Assembly (NCBI GenBank): GCA_012729095.1
Contig: JAAYDU010000015.1
Location: 1 to 36,674 of the forward strand
DNA from: Methanobacteriota archaeon
Lineage (GTDB): Archaea > Thermoplasmatota > Thermoplasmata > Methanomassiliicoccales > UBA472
Direction of reading: 5' to 3'
Length of the DNA: 36,674 nucleotides
The translations under genes and the position numbers were made by a program. Shown here one piece after another: positions 8,478 to 32,488 of the stretch; the first letter of the stretch is position 1; every line of letters begins with the position of its first letter. The notes beneath the pieces are model-generated. The model saw only the letters and a list, made by a program, of their open reading frames with translations, made no database searches and had not been told where the DNA came from.

Positions 8478-8575
8478 GCCGATCGGGACAAAATATTCCG
8501 GGTTGCCTATATAGTTTGGTATGTCGCCCGGGCGCATTACAACCTATTTATCCGCCGGATGGCATCGGGGATGGC

Positions 8576-9781
8576 GTGAACAGGGAGACCGCGTTCGCCA
8601 TGGACCTATTCCGGGAACACTACCGCAGGTCCCCCCCGCCAGCCCCGGCCGATCTGCGGCAGCGGGAGTTCGGCTTCATGTTCTTCGATCGCGATTTCGT
8701 GAGGAGGCACATGGGCTTCCTGGAGGAGAACGACCTACGGCGATTCCTGCTGAACCAGGTCCCGTCGCACGCCTACTTCTCCTCCGCGCTGTACGAGCGC
8801 CCCTCGGCCCCCACCATGGACCTCAAGGGCTGGAAGGGGGCGGACCTGATCTTCGACCTGGACGCCGACCACATCAGGGGAGCGGAGGGGCTTTCCTACG
8901 AGGATATGCTGAAATTGGTGAAGAAGGAGGCCATGGCCCTGCTGGACCGTTTCATATTCGGGGAGTTCGGTTGCGACGAGCGGCTTGTTCGCATAACCTT
9001 CTCCGGGGGGCGCGGGTATCACATACACGTTAGGGACCCCAGGGTGCGCCGCCTCGGCTCGCACGAGCGCGGCGAGATAATCGATTTCGTCACCGGCACC
9101 GACCTGGACCTTGAGAGCGTTTTCCCCTCCTCGGCGGTCATGAAGAAGGATTTCAAGGAGAGGGTCAAGGTGGAGCGCGCGTATCGCATCCCCGGGAAGG
9201 AAGAGGGGGGCTGGCGCCTTCTTGGCCGCGAGGCCTTGGAGATGGTGGCCAAGGAGGCGGGGGTCATGAACGACGAGGGGCTTCGTGAAAGGTACCCGGC
9301 GCTGCAGAGGGCCAAGGACGCCACCCTGGCCGACCTGCGGCGGTCCCTGCACGGCATGCGCGGGGACTGCACCGGGCTGGAGCTGATGCTGCGAGAGAAC
9401 AGCCTGGAGTACTTCACCTCCGACCGGGTGAAGGAGCTGTTCATACAGATGGTGCTGCAGACCCTCAAGGAGAGGATGACCGGGCAGATCGATGAGCCGG
9501 TCACCAGGGACGTCAAGAGGCTGATACGCCTTCCCGGCTCGCTGCACGGGAAGACCGGGCTCAAGGTGGTCACGCTGGAGCGGGACGCCATGAACGACTT
9601 CGATCCCCTGCGGGACGCCGTTCCGGACGCGTTCCCGGACCGGCCGGTGAAGGTGCGCCTGAAGGAGCCCGTGTCGATACGCGTCCGGGACCACCTTGTG
9701 CACGGTTCAGGCGACATGGAGGTGCCGGCCTTCGCCGCCCTTTTCCTGGTCCTGCGCAGATGGGCCGTCCTGGTCCCGTGA
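8576..9781 (+). CDS. priS: DNA primase small subunit (PriS)
   Basis: DLIFDLDADHI and FSGGRGYHIHV motifs, VTRDVKRLIRLPGSLHGKTGL. GTG start at 8576, consistent with a TATA-like ACCTATTTAT about 27-35 bp upstream. Confidence 0.93.
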   Translation: MNRETAFAMDLFREHYRRSPPPAPADLRQREFGFMFFDRDFVRRHMGFLEENDLRRFLLNQVPSHAYFSSALYERPSAPTMDLKGWKGADLIFDLDADHIRGAEGLSYEDMLKLVKKEAMALLDRFIFGEFGCDERLVRITFSGGRGYHIHVRDPRVRRLGSHERGEIIDFVTGTDLDLESVFPSSAVMKKDFKERVKVERAYRIPGKEEGGWRLLGREALEMVAKEAGVMNDEGLRERYPALQRAKDATLADLRRSLHGMRGDCTGLELMLRENSLEYFTSDRVKELFIQMVLQTLKERMTGQIDEPVTRDVKRLIRLPGSLHGKTGLKVVTLERDAMNDFDPLRDAVPDAFPDRPVKVRLKEPVSIRVRDHLVHGSGDMEVPAFAALFLVLRRWAVLVP

Positions 9782-9839: not shown

Positions 9840-10679
9840 ATGAAATATGACAGCGGGCGTTTTGGGGGCGGTTATCGCCTAATGCATATACACAACACCA
9901 AGAGGTACCTGTTCCTGGTGCAGGCCGCCCTGGTGCTTATATTCGCCGCCTATCTGGTGTACGCCGGTGGCGGCCTGGTGGCCAAGCCTTTCTACCTGGG
10001 CATCAACTCCTTCCTGTACTTCGTGCTGCTGATGGTCCTCCTGATAATGGCCGAGTCGTACGTCTTCACCGCCCTGGAGATGCGCTTCGTCGACAGCGAA
10101 AGCGCGAAGTTCCTGATCACTCAGCGCACCTTCCGCGCCGCCCTGTCCTGGGCCGTGGTCTGGTTGGTCGTGATGCTGCTCTTCGTGCTGCCCTTCCTGC
10201 CGGGAGCTGTGACGGACGTCACCCGCAGCAATGGGCAGCTGACCGCCGATTCCTCGGACGTCCCAGCCCATTTCGTGATGTTCAACAGTGACATGTTCGG
10301 GCTGACCGAGGCCTCCATCATCGAGGTGACCGCCTTGGGGGAGGTGGACGTCTTCGTGCTCACGGAATACAACTACCTTCTCTTCGAGGACCGGGGGGCG
10401 GAAATACTGGGCGGTTACCGGGTGAACGCCAACGATTACCTGGCCGCCCCGGACCTGACGATTGATTTCCCCGACATGCCGCATGGCCGGTTCTACGTTC
10501 TGTTCTACTCCCTGAACGACGTGCCGGTAGAGGTCGATTACACGGTGGAGAAGGAGATCTCCAACAGCCTGATGGACTACATGCCCTTCATGTCCCTGGC
10601 CTTCATAGCCCTGAACGGGCTGGCGGCGGGGTACATGATGCTGCTGAACCGGCGCTACAAAGAGGGCATCTACCGGTGA
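9840..10679 (+). CDS. Multi-pass membrane protein of unknown function
   Basis: MKYDSGRFGGGYRLMHIHNTKRYLFLVQAALVLIFAAYLVY...; about four TM segments and a presumed external domain. Confidence 0.7.
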   Translation: MKYDSGRFGGGYRLMHIHNTKRYLFLVQAALVLIFAAYLVYAGGGLVAKPFYLGINSFLYFVLLMVLLIMAESYVFTALEMRFVDSESAKFLITQRTFRAALSWAVVWLVVMLLFVLPFLPGAVTDVTRSNGQLTADSSDVPAHFVMFNSDMFGLTEASIIEVTALGEVDVFVLTEYNYLLFEDRGAEILGGYRVNANDYLAAPDLTIDFPDMPHGRFYVLFYSLNDVPVEVDYTVEKEISNSLMDYMPFMSLAFIALNGLAAGYMMLLNRRYKEGIYR

Positions 10680-11482
10680 AGAGCGCAGCAGACGCTGCTC
10701 TCCAGGATGCTCCAGCCCCTTTCGCGGATGGCGTTCAGCGTTCCCTTTGACGGGTTCGCGATCCCTGCCGCCCCCGCCTCCAGGGCCGCCATCTCCACGT
10801 CCGGACGGCCGCGGGGCCGCATGCACCCCAGCAGGACCGGGCGATGTTGCTCGCGGCATTCCTCCACCGCCCTGATCAGTCTTTCCTCCCAGCCCCCGAC
10901 CTTTCGTCCGAGGAGGGAGAGCAGCACCAGGCAAGGCACGTCCGCCCGGCAGGCGGCCCGTACCGCCTCCAGCTCGCACCCCTCGTCTCCCGCCCCCAGG
11001 AGCACGTGGGGCGCCACCCTTCCCGGGGCGGCCCGGCAGAGGGCCCGGAAGGAGACCAGGTGGTCCTGGTGGGCGCCCCTCAGGTGCATCCTTTCCCTGA
11101 TGAGGGCGGGGTCCAGCACCAGGTCGAACGATATGCGGTCGGCCTTGCTGCTGGCCAGCATTTCCGCCTCGCCCTCCGTGACCAGTCCCGGGTGCAGGTT
11201 CACCAGCAGCGGGGTGGCCTCCTTGATGCACTTCACCGTATCCAGGTATGGGAGCAGCGGCACCTTTCCCTGGGCATCGCAGCCGCCGCTGAGCAGGAAC
11301 CCGGAGCATCCCCGCGCCAGCAGCCCCTCGGCGAGGTCCCGGAGCGCGCCAGGGCCTTCGACCTTGGTCATGCCCTTTAGGTAGCGCCCGCGGCAGTGCT
11401 CGCACATGAGCTCGCATCGATCTCCGGTGACGGAGAGGGAGGGAAAGCACCGCCCGGGCCGGTAGACGGCGATGGTCCGCAT
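10670..11482 (-). CDS. Radical SAM protein (COG1856-like)
   Basis: PSLSVTGDRCELMCEHCRGRYLKGM with CxxxCxxC; TIM-barrel-like length. Confidence 0.75.
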   Translation of the reverse strand: MRTIAVYRPGRCFPSLSVTGDRCELMCEHCRGRYLKGMTKVEGPGALRDLAEGLLARGCSGFLLSGGCDAQGKVPLLPYLDTVKCIKEATPLLVNLHPGLVTEGEAEMLASSKADRISFDLVLDPALIRERMHLRGAHQDHLVSFRALCRAAPGRVAPHVLLGAGDEGCELEAVRAACRADVPCLVLLSLLGRKVGGWEERLIRAVEECREQHRPVLLGCMRPRGRPDVEMAALEAGAAGIANPSKGTLNAIRERGWSILESSVCCALHR

Positions 11483-11551
11483 GGTTGGCGGATGCGCTGC
11501 CGACCAAAAGCTTTATTGGGTGAACCTCGTTCCTCGGCCGAGGCAAGCCCG

Positions 11552-17106: not shown

Positions 17107-17454
17107 ATGACCAAGCCGATCAGTGTGGAGAGGGGGCTGGAGATATCGTCCTTGTCCATCGTCCTAGGTGCCGTTCTTCTTCTGGTCGGGGTGGCCGACG
17201 CTCTGGACTGGTCCTTGGACCTGGGCGGATGGGGTTTCTACGCGGGAGCCGCGGGCGTTCTAGTCATGATCGTCGGTGTGGTCTGGACCGTTTCGATATT
17301 TCAGAGGAGATGGAGGTTCAGTGTTCTTATGGGGGAGAGGAGCAAGGCCGCCTTCGTACGCTCCTTGGACGAGATAGAGTATGCGGCTTGGAGGCTGCCT
17401 TCGAAGTATGACGAGCTTCTTGCAGATAAGAAGAGGGAAATGGGAGTGAAGTAG
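17107..17454 (+). CDS. Small membrane protein (possibly DUF3198-like)
   Basis: 115 aa with two TM segments; family guess from Thermoplasmata-type small membrane proteins. Confidence 0.6.
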   Translation: MTKPISVERGLEISSLSIVLGAVLLLVGVADALDWSLDLGGWGFYAGAAGVLVMIVGVVWTVSIFQRRWRFSVLMGERSKAAFVRSLDEIEYAAWRLPSKYDELLADKKREMGVK

Positions 17455-17468
17455 AGGGGGACCCCATT

Positions 17469-17482
17469 GTTTCATATGGAAC
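17469..17482 (-). promoter_or_regulatory. ORB-like origin motif (minus orientation) GTTCCATATGAAAC
   Basis: Plus strand GTTTCATATGGAAC; minus strand continues AATGGGGTCCCCC, a G-string. Confidence 0.65.
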
Positions 17483-17512
17483 CGTTCTTAGGGCGTCGGT
17501 CTCTGGACAGTC

Positions 17513-17600
17513 GTTATTTGATCGGAAACATTGTTTTTTAATAGTTTATAATCATATATAATATAATCAATAAAAATCGATTATCTATCTATCATATATC
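17513..17600. other. AT-rich candidate duplex-unwinding element
   Basis: ATTGTTTTTTAATAGTTTATAATCATATATAATATAATCAATAAAAATCGATTATCTATCTATCATATA, between two inverted ORB-like motifs. Confidence 0.6.
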
Positions 17601-18871
17601 GAATCGGTTCCACTTGAAACGTCACGGATCCCCGGCAATGAATAGAGTCGGTCCATAACCTTTTCCAGGTAGTCATGGTGGCATCTGAACGTCACATCGG
17701 CCAGCTCGGTGTACACAACCGACTCCACGAAGCACTCGTCGAACAACCTGGATATCTCGGTGGCGGCCCTCTCTCCGTTGTCCGCTTTGAAACGGACTAT
17801 CACTGGTGGTAGGAAGAAGGAACGCACCGTATCAAGAAGCTCGTCCACTCCCTCCCCGGTCACCGCCGAGACGCCGATAACAGACAACGGGTCCAGAACG
17901 TCATATATCATCCCTATCATCTCCATCGGCCGATCAGGGTCCTGGTCCATCTTGTTCAACGCTACAAGCAACCTGCCTTTCAACACACCCTTCCCCAGTA
18001 TCTGCTGGACGGCCATAACCTTGGAGCTTACGTCGAACAAAGGCTCCGATGAATCCACCACCAAAACCACAAGGTCGGCGGTGAACACGTCCTGCAAGGT
18101 GTTCCTGAAGGATTCCACCATGAAATGCGGCAGGTCCTTGAGAAATCCCACGGTGTCGGTCAGCAGCACCCTGGAAGAACCGACCCTCCTGGTCGTTGTT
18201 CCCAAAGTGGAGAACATCCTGTCGGCCACCAGGACCTCCTCCCCGGTCATCCTGCGCATCAGGGAAGATTTTCCGGCGTTCGTGTAGCCGGCCAGGCAAA
18301 CGGTCCTGAAACCCTTGTAGCGTCGAACCCCCCGGCGCAGGTCCCCGTCCCTGGCCAATGACCTAAGCTCTCCCTCTATCTGAGCGATCCTGCGCCTTAT
18401 GAGGTTGTAGTAAACGTCCACCTGGTATTCCCCGCCTCCCAGGAACCCCGGGTGCTCCCCCGCCTTGGCGCTGTGCACCCACTCCCTCATCAACGGCACC
18501 TGGTAACGAAGCTTTGCCAGCTCCACCTGCAGTTTAGACTCTCTCCCCTCGGCCCTGCTGGTGAATATGTCCAGAACCACCGCTATGCGGTCCAGGCACT
18601 CCACCTTGAGACCGTTCTCGATGTTGAAGTGCTGCGATGGTTTGAGCTCCCCGTTGATCACCAGCACCTCCACCGGGCTCTCGCCCAACAGCTCCTTAAG
18701 CTCGTTGAACCGCCCCCTTCCCAGGTAATATGTCTGGTCCGGATGCGAGCGCCTCTGCATCACCTCGTACACGATCTCTATATCGGCCGAGCGGCACAGC
18801 TCCTCTATCTCCGCCGTGTCCCGGTCGAGACTTATCAACGCTCCCCTTCTCAAGTCAGTACATCCTCGCAC
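17585..18871 (-). CDS. hflX: GTPase HflX
   Basis: LGRGRFNELKELL, SKLQVELAKLRYQVPLMREW, GYTNAGKSSLMRRMTG, DTVGFLKDLPHFMVESFRNTL. Confidence 0.95.
   Translation of the reverse strand: MRGCTDLRRGALISLDRDTAEIEELCRSADIEIVYEVMQRRSHPDQTYYLGRGRFNELKELLGESPVEVLVINGELKPSQHFNIENGLKVECLDRIAVVLDIFTSRAEGRESKLQVELAKLRYQVPLMREWVHSAKAGEHPGFLGGGEYQVDVYYNLIRRRIAQIEGELRSLARDGDLRRGVRRYKGFRTVCLAGYTNAGKSSLMRRMTGEEVLVADRMFSTLGTTTRRVGSSRVLLTDTVGFLKDLPHFMVESFRNTLQDVFTADLVVLVVDSSEPLFDVSSKVMAVQQILGKGVLKGRLLVALNKMDQDPDRPMEMIGMIYDVLDPLSVIGVSAVTGEGVDELLDTVRSFFLPPVIVRFKADNGERAATEISRLFDECFVESVVYTELADVTFRCHHDYLEKVMDRLYSLPGIRDVSSGTDSIYDR
17607..17620 (+). promoter_or_regulatory. ORB-like origin motif (plus orientation) GTTCCACTTGAAAC
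   Basis: Inverted relative to 17469-17482; the CG-extended 16-mers match at 14/16. Lies in the 3' end of hflX. Confidence 0.6.
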
Positions 18872-18891
18872 CTCAATCCCCCACGGTTCAT

Positions 18892-18907
18892 TTACCTTAT
18901 TTGGTAA
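18892..18907. promoter_or_regulatory. Palindrome TTACC-TTATTT-GGTAA in the hflX/cdc6 divergent region
   Basis: Perfect 5-bp arms; on the minus strand followed by GTGGGGGATT. Confidence 0.5.
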
Positions 18908-18921
18908 CAGACCTTTTCAGC

Positions 18922-18948
18922 GTTCCAAAGGAAATCAAGGGGTGGGGG
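18922..18948 (+). promoter_or_regulatory. ORB-like origin motif with G-string GTTCCAAAGGAAATCAAGGGGTGGGGG
   Basis: TTCCnnnGGAA dyad plus downstream G-string, matching archaeal ORB architecture; upstream of orc1/cdc6. Confidence 0.7.
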
Positions 18949-18999
18949 CTGTATCTGGAAATATGAAAACGCTAGCGCTTACTTCCTGTAAAAGGGATA

Positions 19000-19047
19000 A
19001 AAGTAAGGTTCTAGTAAATAGACACGTAATGTCCTCTTCCTTACTTT
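19000..19047. promoter_or_regulatory. Inverted repeat AAAGTAAGG ... CCTTACTTT in the cdc6 promoter/leader
   Basis: Perfect 9-bp arms at 19000-19008 and 19039-19047; left arm overlaps the TATA-like GGATAAAAGT. Confidence 0.6.
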
Positions 19048-19078: not shown

Positions 19079-20317
19079 ATGGAATCCAATGTATTCACCC
19101 AGCATATGGACCGCAAGCAGATCTTCAAGAAGAACAACAGGGAGATCCTGCGCCCCTCCTACATACCGGACGTCCTTCCGCACCGTCAGGACGAGATCAA
19201 CTCCCTGGCCTCGGTGCTGGTCACGGCCCTCAAGGGGGAGCGGCCCAGCAACATCCTCATATTCGGGAAGACAGGAACGGGAAAGACAGCCTGCGTCAAG
19301 TTCATCGGCAACGAGATCAAGAAGGCCGGCGGCGACGAGGGCAAGGTCACGTTCATCTACATGAACTGCGAGGTCGTGGACACCTCCTACGGAGTGCTGC
19401 AGAACATCGGCAACCAGTTCGTCAAGGACTTCGATCAGCGCATTCCCTTCACTGGGTTGAGCATAATGCAGGTGTACAACATGCTCAGGGACAAGCTGGA
19501 CGAGCAGAACCACGTCATAATAATAGCCCTGGACGAGATAGACAAGCTGGTCTACAAGAGCGGGGACGACGTGCTGTACCACCTTTCCAAGATAAACGAC
19601 GATCTGCGGCACGCCCGGGTGTCCGTGATCGGGATATCAAACGACCTCCTCTTCACCGAAATGCTGGACCCCCGGGTGCGCAGCCGCATGGAGGGGGAGA
19701 AGATGGTCTTCCCTCCATACAACGCCGACCAGCTGAAGGACATTCTTAGGCAGCGGTCCTCGTTAGCCTTCGATGATGGGGTGCTCGAGGAGGCCGTGAT
19801 CCCTCTGTGCGCGGCATTGGCCGCCCAGGAGCACGGGGACGCCAGGCGCGCTCTCGATCTTCTGCGCATCGCCGGCGAGATAGCCGAGAGGGAGAACGTT
19901 GACAAGGTGCAGGAGATGCACGTGCTCAAGGCCAAGAACAAGATGGAGCTGGACTGCGTGAGCGAGGCCATACGCACGCTGCCCACGCAATCCAAGCTGG
20001 TGCTCATGTGCATAGTCAACAACGTGGAGAGGGGAACGGAGAGGCTCACAACCGGGGACGTGTACGAGACGTACAAGGAGACCTCCCGGATCTTGGGAAT
20101 GGGCCCCCTGACCCAGAGAAGGATCACCGACCTCATATCCGAACTGGACATGATGGGCATCATACATGCCAGGGTGCGCTCCTTCGGCAGGGGAGGACGG
20201 ACCAAGGAGATAGACATGGGCGTGCCCCTGGCGGATGCGAAGAAGGTGCTGGAGGAGGACGAGGTGTTCGTGGGCCTCAAGCACTACAAGCAGAAGAACC
20301 AGACCACGTTGATGTGA
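19079..20317 (+). CDS. cdc6: Orc1/Cdc6 replication initiator
   Basis: PSNILIFGKTGTGKTACVKFI, HVIIIALDEIDKLVYKSGDDVLYHL, C-terminal winged helix. Confidence 0.96.
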   Translation: MESNVFTQHMDRKQIFKKNNREILRPSYIPDVLPHRQDEINSLASVLVTALKGERPSNILIFGKTGTGKTACVKFIGNEIKKAGGDEGKVTFIYMNCEVVDTSYGVLQNIGNQFVKDFDQRIPFTGLSIMQVYNMLRDKLDEQNHVIIIALDEIDKLVYKSGDDVLYHLSKINDDLRHARVSVIGISNDLLFTEMLDPRVRSRMEGEKMVFPPYNADQLKDILRQRSSLAFDDGVLEEAVIPLCAALAAQEHGDARRALDLLRIAGEIAERENVDKVQEMHVLKAKNKMELDCVSEAIRTLPTQSKLVLMCIVNNVERGTERLTTGDVYETYKETSRILGMGPLTQRRITDLISELDMMGIIHARVRSFGRGGRTKEIDMGVPLADAKKVLEEDEVFVGLKHYKQKNQTTLM

Positions 20318-31027: not shown

Positions 31028-32488
31028 TCAGAAGTCGGCCACGGCCGGCTTCCCGGTGCCCAGGTGCACCAGTACCAGCTTGGCCGGGTCAGGGACGAAA
31101 TTGTGCATCTTCTGGAAGGAGGTCTGGTCCTGCCAGGTGGAGGCGTTTATCAGGCGGATGCCGTTGTAAAAAGACACCCCGGCGCCGTGCACGTGCCCGG
31201 TGACGAATATGTCTGGCACCTCGTCGATGACCAGGTAGTCCCTCCTCTCCGGGGCGAAAGGCGTCTTGCCTCCGTACATGGGGGCCATGTGCCTTCTCTT
31301 CAGCATCTCCTCCATGGCCTTGAGGGGCTGGGAGTATGACAGCCCCTTGATCCCGTTGACCATGTCGTCGAAGCTCTTGCCGTGATAGGACAGTATGGTC
31401 CGCCCCTCTATACGCAGATAGGCGGGGTTGCCGATCTGGAGTATGTTGGAATCGAACAGTTTGGCCACCTCCTCACCGAGGGCTGGCTGCGGCTCCGCCG
31501 GGCGCACCATGTCATGGTTCCCCGGCTGCATGACTATGCGGATGTCGTCCGGAACCTCCTTGAGAAGCTCGGCAAGGGCGCGGTACTGGTCTATGATGTC
31601 CTCGATGACCAGTTCCTCCTCCTGCCCGGGGAACACCCCCACGCCGTCCACGCAATCACCGGGTATGACTATGTAACGCAGGTCCAGGTCCCCGGCCTCC
31701 TCCTTGAGCCAGGCCATCATGTTCCTCCAGCGGTCCTCCAGGAACGTGTTGCTGCCGATGTGCACGTCGGACATGAAGGCCACCTGCGCCGTGGAATCCG
31801 TCACCTCCATGCCGGAGCTGAACGGCACGTCCGGGCGGATAAGGTCCTTAAGTATCATCTTCCGGTCCCGGCGGGACATCTTGCCCACGACGCCTATGAC
31901 CTCGTCCTGCATCACGGAGTCCTTGGCCACCTTGTTGTCCTTGGGCACCATGACCGTCATTCGTCCGGTGTCGTCCTCCAGTTCGATGATCTTCTCCCCC
32001 GAGCGGGTCTCCCGGACCTCGTTGACCATGCCGATGACCTTGACCTCATCGGCCTGCAGCTTGTTGGGGTCCATGGCCCTCTGTATGGAGGTGGCGCCCA
32101 TCATGTCCCGGCGCCGCAACAGCAGCCCCTTCAGCGAAGCGTAGCGGTCCTGGAAGTAGCGGGCGAAACCCTCCACGGACCCCAGGCAGTCCGACTGGGC
32201 GGTGATGTCCTTCATCACCTGCACCTCGCCTATCCTTCTCACGGACACCGGTTCCGGGCGCTGCACCGTCTCCAGCCTGGGGGCGTCGACCCTGACCACG
32301 GTGCGCAGGTCGCGCAGGGTCACCACCAGAGGCTGATAGGGTATCTGGGGGATGACATGGCGCGCGAACTGCAGCGGGGAGGGCTGTTCCAGAATGAATT
32401 CCTCGGCCTCCTGGTCCAGAAGATAACCGTCATTGGCCAGGGCCTCGACGACCTTGCTACGCATCCAGCCTTCCCATGCCGCCCCCAT
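31028..32488 (-). CDS. polD1: DNA polymerase D small subunit (DP1, 3'-5' exonuclease)
   Basis: OB-fold segment plus VAFMSDVHIGS, IPGDCVDGVGVFPGQE, QPGNHDMVRPAEPQPA, FVTGHVHGAG. Confidence 0.95.
   Translation of the reverse strand: MGAAWEGWMRSKVVEALANDGYLLDQEAEEFILEQPSPLQFARHVIPQIPYQPLVVTLRDLRTVVRVDAPRLETVQRPEPVSVRRIGEVQVMKDITAQSDCLGSVEGFARYFQDRYASLKGLLLRRRDMMGATSIQRAMDPNKLQADEVKVIGMVNEVRETRSGEKIIELEDDTGRMTVMVPKDNKVAKDSVMQDEVIGVVGKMSRRDRKMILKDLIRPDVPFSSGMEVTDSTAQVAFMSDVHIGSNTFLEDRWRNMMAWLKEEAGDLDLRYIVIPGDCVDGVGVFPGQEEELVIEDIIDQYRALAELLKEVPDDIRIVMQPGNHDMVRPAEPQPALGEEVAKLFDSNILQIGNPAYLRIEGRTILSYHGKSFDDMVNGIKGLSYSQPLKAMEEMLKRRHMAPMYGGKTPFAPERRDYLVIDEVPDIFVTGHVHGAGVSFYNGIRLINASTWQDQTSFQKMHNFVPDPAKLVLVHLGTGKPAVADF

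Follow-up and report, generated by a model that had tools for sequence, protein, structure and literature searches.

The stretch of DNA analysed here (the window, 36,674 nucleotides from a 1.68-Mb draft genome in 72 contigs) very probably contains the chromosome replication origin of a methane-making archaeon. With a probability of about 0.87, we interpret the locus as the orc1/cdc6.1-linked chromosomal origin (oriC, of the archaeal oriC1 type) of a Methanomassiliicoccales archaeon, operating through the steps proposed below, an interpretation well supported by the adjacency of orc1/cdc6.1, by outward-facing origin recognition boxes (ORBs) found throughout the order, by an adjacent candidate for the DNA-unwinding element and by diverging gene orientation. 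Apart from skew, the sequence features of the oriC1 type that we checked are present. A previous sequence-only reading had proposed an origin at this place with its core at 17455-17620, formed by two inverted ORB-like motifs around an AT-rich element. The origin itself is well supported by orc1/cdc6.1 and the conserved ORBs, but the core had been drawn too narrowly: the conserved partner of the left ORB is a site at 18922-18948 and not the copy at 17605-17620.

Two full ORBs bracket hflX

Re-reading of the sequence placed both motifs of the earlier pair, the G-string of the left one and the 130-bp gap exactly where they had been reported, the minus strand being CGGTTCCATATGAAAC at 17469-17484 followed by AATGGGGTCCCCC to 17456 and the plus strand being CGGTTCCACTTGAAAC at 17605-17620. 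Taken simply as an inverted repeat, the pair does not stand out, with 22 pairs detected in 2.1 kb by a repeat finder, several of them equally good, and it was rejected as evidence for an origin given the equal or better repeats nearby. The short motif at two mismatches was found 10 times in the window vs 7.0 expected, which is chance level. The case must therefore rest on context and conservation. The frequency of the motif in the genome, one of the checks suggested earlier, was determined by pattern searches, as were all genome-wide counts given here; exact GTTCCANNNGAAAC is rare, with three matches in 1.68 Mb, two of them at this locus and 138 bp apart.

The ORB pattern TTCCANNNGAAAYNNDGGGGT had three exact matches in the genome, at 17461-17481 (minus strand), at 18923-18943 (plus strand) and on contig C8. 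A profile built solely from ORBs outside the genus, in other genera and families, scored 30.0 bits at 18922 (plus strand) and 22.9 bits at 17482 (minus strand), the third-best site of the window reaching 5.1 bits. The left motif with its G-string (CGGTTCCATATGAAACAATGGGGTCCCCC, 17456-17484, minus strand), already recognised as ORB-like, is a true ORB, and lies directly after the stop codon of a small ORF. The right ORB with its G-string (GTTCCAAAGGAAATCAAGGGGTGGGGG, 18922-18948, plus strand) lies 157 bp upstream of orc1/cdc6, within the 207-bp interval between hflX and orc1/cdc6, and fits the published Methanomassiliicoccales ORB consensus GTTCCAGTGGAAATGG-AGGGGT (PMC4153887). The G-strings are GGGGTCCCCC on the left and GGGGTGGGGG on the right, with none at 17605-17620. 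The two ORBs are inverted, with G-strings facing outward, and stand 1.44 kb apart with hflX between them. The sequence-only reading mentioned neither orc1/cdc6 at 19079-20317 nor the ORB at 18922-18948, the best of the window.

The initiator gene and its neighbourhood

The gene at 19079-20317 (plus strand, 412 aa) encodes the initiator Orc1/Cdc6.1, matching NF001625 with 560 bits (cut-off 501 bits) as well as Cdc6_C and Cdc6_lid. Among proteins of solved structure, the initiator is closest to Sulfolobus Orc1-1 (2qby_A, E 2e-108) and Aeropyrum ORC1 (2v1u, E 4e-101), and no Cdc6 relatives were found in viral contigs. A second orc1/cdc6 paralogue with 31% identity is encoded elsewhere in the genome (G000:C70:3702-4832, L053), and the 5.5 kb around it contain no ORB. 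The gene between the two ORBs encodes the GTPase HflX (17585-18871, minus strand; TIGR03156, 286 bits), and the conserved small ORF ending at the left ORB (17107-17454, plus strand) encodes 115 aa with a weak DUF3198 match. Alignment of the nine genus members revealed two further conserved elements in the interval upstream of orc1/cdc6, namely TTTACCTTATTTGGTAAC (plus-strand reading; 18891-18908, minus strand), a putative promoter element of hflX, and the TATA-box-like GATAAAAGTAAGG (18996-19008, plus strand), a putative promoter element of orc1/cdc6. The genes for the primase small subunit (8516-9781) and for a DP1-like protein (PolD small subunit; 31028-32488) flank the origin region, as expected of a replication gene neighbourhood.

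Conservation across the order

The small ORF (plus strand), hflX (minus strand) and orc1/cdc6 (plus strand) are syntenic in 18 genomes of the family, the small ORF lying beyond the available stretch in one of them; in the relatives too the left ORB closely follows the small ORF stop codon, with the right ORB upstream of orc1/cdc6. Allowing up to one mismatch, the ORB pattern was detected in 72 of 76 genomes of the order, nearly all of them at least 90% complete, usually two to five times per genome, and the reversed control pattern gave few matches in the same set. We compared 36 loci, including that of the window, from six families of the order (f1 to f6). In every one of the 35 loci for which both flanks are available, the left side has a strong minus-strand ORB and the right side one or more strong plus-strand ORBs, so that the G-strings point outward; in three loci, a weaker minus-strand match also occurred among the right-hand sites. 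In f1 to f5 the pair brackets hflX, except in G032, where no hflX was detected and the two ORBs stand 0.25 kb from each other. In f6 the pair brackets orc1/cdc6 in seven of eight loci, hflX being absent there (for example L083-L089).

The ends of the boxes differ between families: those of f1 to f5 mostly have GGGGTCCCC at the left ORB and GGGGTGGGG at the right one, and those of f6 have GGGGTGGGG at both. The GGGGTCCCC form of the left end is palindromic, in the window (17456-17465) and in relatives. The same outward polarity was seen in other families of the class, with pairs about 3.05 kb apart in f9 (G131:C115:8341 and 11392) or 0.6 kb apart in f11 (G159:C20:689 and 1280). Some genomes carry extra ORBs outside the origin core, some of them 12-25 kb from orc1/cdc6 (G067:C27:42125 and 67011; G060:C65:36052; G055:C1:1569069; and several contigs of G037), which are possible titration sites or second origins.

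The AT-rich tract and the right-hand copy

The strongly AT-rich tract noted earlier between the two motifs was readily confirmed, no other 100 bp of the window being as rich in AT (78%) or as unstable as 17500-17599. The tract as a whole (17500-17604) includes a conserved ATAAAAATCGATTATCTATC block over the hflX stop codon in the alignment of nine genus members, and overlaps the 130-bp convergent gap between the small ORF stop codon (17454) and that of hflX (17585). The accompanying statement that the other convergent junctions measure up to about 17 bp is slightly inaccurate, as that at 9781/9879 spans about 97 bp if the ORF concerned is real. This ORF (9879-11546, minus strand), beside the primase gene, encodes 555 aa with no Pfam match. 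T-rich terminators are expected at the shared 3' end of convergent genes, which is what the AT-rich tract is. A scan for bacterial-type sites revealed no stem-loop terminator at the tract, and an RNA gene was rejected, as Rfam gave no match up to E 0.1.

All nine genus members have the least stable 80 bp of the locus just inside the left ORB. In sister genera and other families the least stable DNA is elsewhere, mostly between the ORBs. The tract is consequently a good candidate for an unwinding element at the level of the genus. In the sister genera represented by G011 (L044), G005, G010 and G012, the least stable DNA falls inside the hflX alignment, about 1250 bp upstream of cdc6.

The copy at 17605-17620 (plus strand) resembles an ORB core and, as previously pointed out, lies within the hflX coding sequence, where it covers the last codons. 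It was absent from the matches to the full-ORB profile, and a core-only profile gave 15.8 bits (17607, plus strand). In seven of nine genus members it is the best site for the core TTCCAnnnGAAAC within the hflX coding sequence, with scores from 4.2 to 19.2 bits; the copy is missing or unrecognisable in two of the nine (G021 and G017). In excess synonymous conservation, the codons covering it take third place among 408 windows in hflX from the nine genomes, with the valine codon being GTT in all nine. Because this conservation exceeds that of nearly all of hflX, the copy may be a secondary mini-ORB, weak and at best genus-level, that flanks the AT-rich tract; the conserved partner of the left ORB lies elsewhere.

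Gene orientation and nucleotide skew

Gene orientation diverges at the locus, as had been inferred from the neighbouring genes. Cumulative strand bias has local minima at hflX/cdc6 within the window and on contig C6 of G017, and in G011, the one complete relative of the family, the detrended cumulative gene-strand bias over the whole chromosome is lowest at the orc1/cdc6 sample, at the coarse resolution of 20 kb sampled every 45 kb (40 samples). The GC skew gave no comparable signal: the inflection sought by the earlier reading was not seen at cdc6 in the 40 samples of G011, in which skew was weak and had no extremum there, and neither the window nor contig C6 of G017 had a usable extremum.

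A further ORB in the mcm intein

The third exact ORB of the genome is located inside mcm, the replicative helicase gene, within a mini-intein of 163 aa (G000:C8:24873-24893; L070:1274-1294). We compared 30 mcm inteins from f1 and f3 to f6, in which the identity of intein-plus-flank proteins to the query fell to about 45%. The ORB pattern was found at the same codons in 28 of them, mostly as ACC CCT TCA TTT CTT GTG GAA; the remaining two have ACG CCG GCC AGA and ACG CCG GAG AGG. Among 99 windows, the intein ORB is the peak of excess synonymous conservation, with an observed identity of 0.87 vs 0.35 expected from codon use, and the position between the invariant CCT and TTT is taken in 28 of 28 inteins by a codon with A or G as its third base, as the ORB requires. 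Among the matches listed, the exact pattern is missing from some further f6 inteins, and the intein ORB is thus not universal. Where both share a contig, it lies 14-30 kb from orc1/cdc6.

It is reasonably probable that the protein-coding sequence of the mcm mini-intein contains one more box for Orc1, belonging to the same origin system and with its DNA maintained by codon-level selection across several families. The intein would then carry a DNA element for initiator titration, for mcm control or for a second initiation site. In Haloarcula, ORBs outside the origin core control the origin negatively, probably by titrating the initiator (PMC3936714), and in Thermococcales ORBs occur in the DP1 gene (PMC2643942). 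We found no published ORB inside an intein, of mcm or otherwise, in a literature search that drew mostly on sources outside subscription journals and is therefore weak evidence of novelty.

Discussion

From the features above we infer the following course of initiation. Orc1/Cdc6.1, the product of the gene at 19079-20317, would bind the two outward-facing ORBs at 17484-17456 (minus strand) and 18922-18948 (plus strand), and initiators bound at both would cause melting somewhere between the two sites, with the AT-rich tract (17500-17604) next to the left ORB as the most likely place. The initiators would also load MCM, and replication would proceed in both directions. The copy at 17605-17620 may act as a weaker mini-ORB at the opposite edge of the tract.

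An origin of this kind was already predicted for the order. Borrel et al. 2014 (PMC4153887) predicted the origins of Ca. M. alvus, Ca. M. intestinalis and M. luminyensis from ORBs beside orc1/cdc6.1, in a setting that also includes neighbouring ATP synthase genes and a further orc1/cdc6 lacking ORBs, and the origin of ISO4-H5 was predicted in the same manner (PMC5011839). The locus of the window resembles those three in its ORB sequence, its linkage to orc1/cdc6.1 and ATP synthase genes, its inverted ORBs and a second orc1/cdc6 lacking an ORB, and is to this extent a solid but mostly ordinary find. It differs in that the pair brackets hflX, and the sections of that account considered here list ORBs per genome and mention no polarity rule for the whole order, no bracketing of hflX and no unwinding tract.

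In Sulfolobus and in haloarchaea, oriC1 is defined by an AT-rich element enclosed by inverted ORBs beside the initiator gene (PMC12141716, PMC3936714, PMC4010727). As in haloarchaeal oriC1 (Haloarcula hispanica, PMC3936714; PMC4010727), the ORBs here are inverted, have G-strings and enclose AT-rich DNA. The gene context there, with a GTP-binding protein, cdc6, a signal peptidase and a polymerase gene (PMC3936714, PMC4010727), corresponds here to hflX, cdc6, a weak match to signal peptidase I and, further on, the DP1-like gene. The locus likewise resembles Sulfolobus oriC1 (PMC12141716), in which inverted ORBs flank an AT-rich unwinding element beside orc1-1, and the initiator is, among solved structures, closest to Sso Orc1-1. 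Spacing sets it apart from both, as haloarchaeal ORBs belong to one compact AT-rich minimal origin and Sulfolobus oriC1 is compact as well. This separation of the full ORBs by 1.44 kb and a gene, wider than in either type of core, speaks against the oriC assignment, as do the restriction of the AT-rich tract beside the left ORB to its own genus and its place at the shared 3' end of two convergent genes, the GC skew of G011 without an extremum at cdc6 and the derivation of the strand minimum from 20-kb samples every 45 kb.

One alternative is that 17455-17620 alone is the whole origin, as a compact inverted ORB pair around the unwinding element, with the site at 18922 being only regulatory. There, inverted core motifs 120 bp apart flank the least stable tract, comparable to the ORB3-DUE-ORB2 arrangement of Sulfolobus (PMC12141716), the right copy attains 15.8 bits with the core-only profile, and the tail codons of hflX over it rank with those of highest synonymous conservation. 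However, this copy has no G-string and is missing or unrecognisable in G021 and G017, and none of the loci compared has a full ORB at its place. The ORB at 18922 is the stronger site and conserved throughout, and we consider a self-contained compact origin unlikely. Chance matches in T-rich intergenic DNA at the tail of two convergent genes, with no origin at all, would agree with the unexceptional inverted repeat and with the chance-level count of the short motif, but the rest of the genome has almost no exact full ORBs, and the position and orientation of those at the locus are conserved across six families. Such conservation refutes a chance origin of the left ORB and of the ORB at 18922, and a locus devoid of an origin for this reason is barely conceivable.

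The boxes might instead be Orc1/Cdc6 sites mainly for transcriptional control, with replication starting elsewhere. The ORB at 18922-18948 does lie between the conserved promoter-like elements of the divergent hflX and orc1/cdc6 genes, a position suited to autoregulation; archaeal Orc1-2 is reported to regulate transcription, and in Haloarcula ORBs are known to act by titration (PMC3936714). The left ORB, on the other hand, is at the end of the small ORF and not at a promoter, the pair persists in f6 around orc1/cdc6 (seven of eight loci) although the gene order shifts, and the strand bias turns at the locus. A mainly transcriptional role is accordingly judged very unlikely, and we retain the oriC assignment.

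As an oriC, the locus provides a well-defined, testable predicted origin in a little-studied order of methanogens. The rule that outward-facing ORBs bracket one gene, hflX or, where hflX is absent, mostly orc1/cdc6, extends over six families and makes origins callable in draft genomes of the order. The ORB in the mcm intein, if real, would represent an uncommon situation in which the coding sequence of a self-splicing element preserves a regulatory DNA site tied to the same initiator as the origin, and is possibly more novel than the origin itself.
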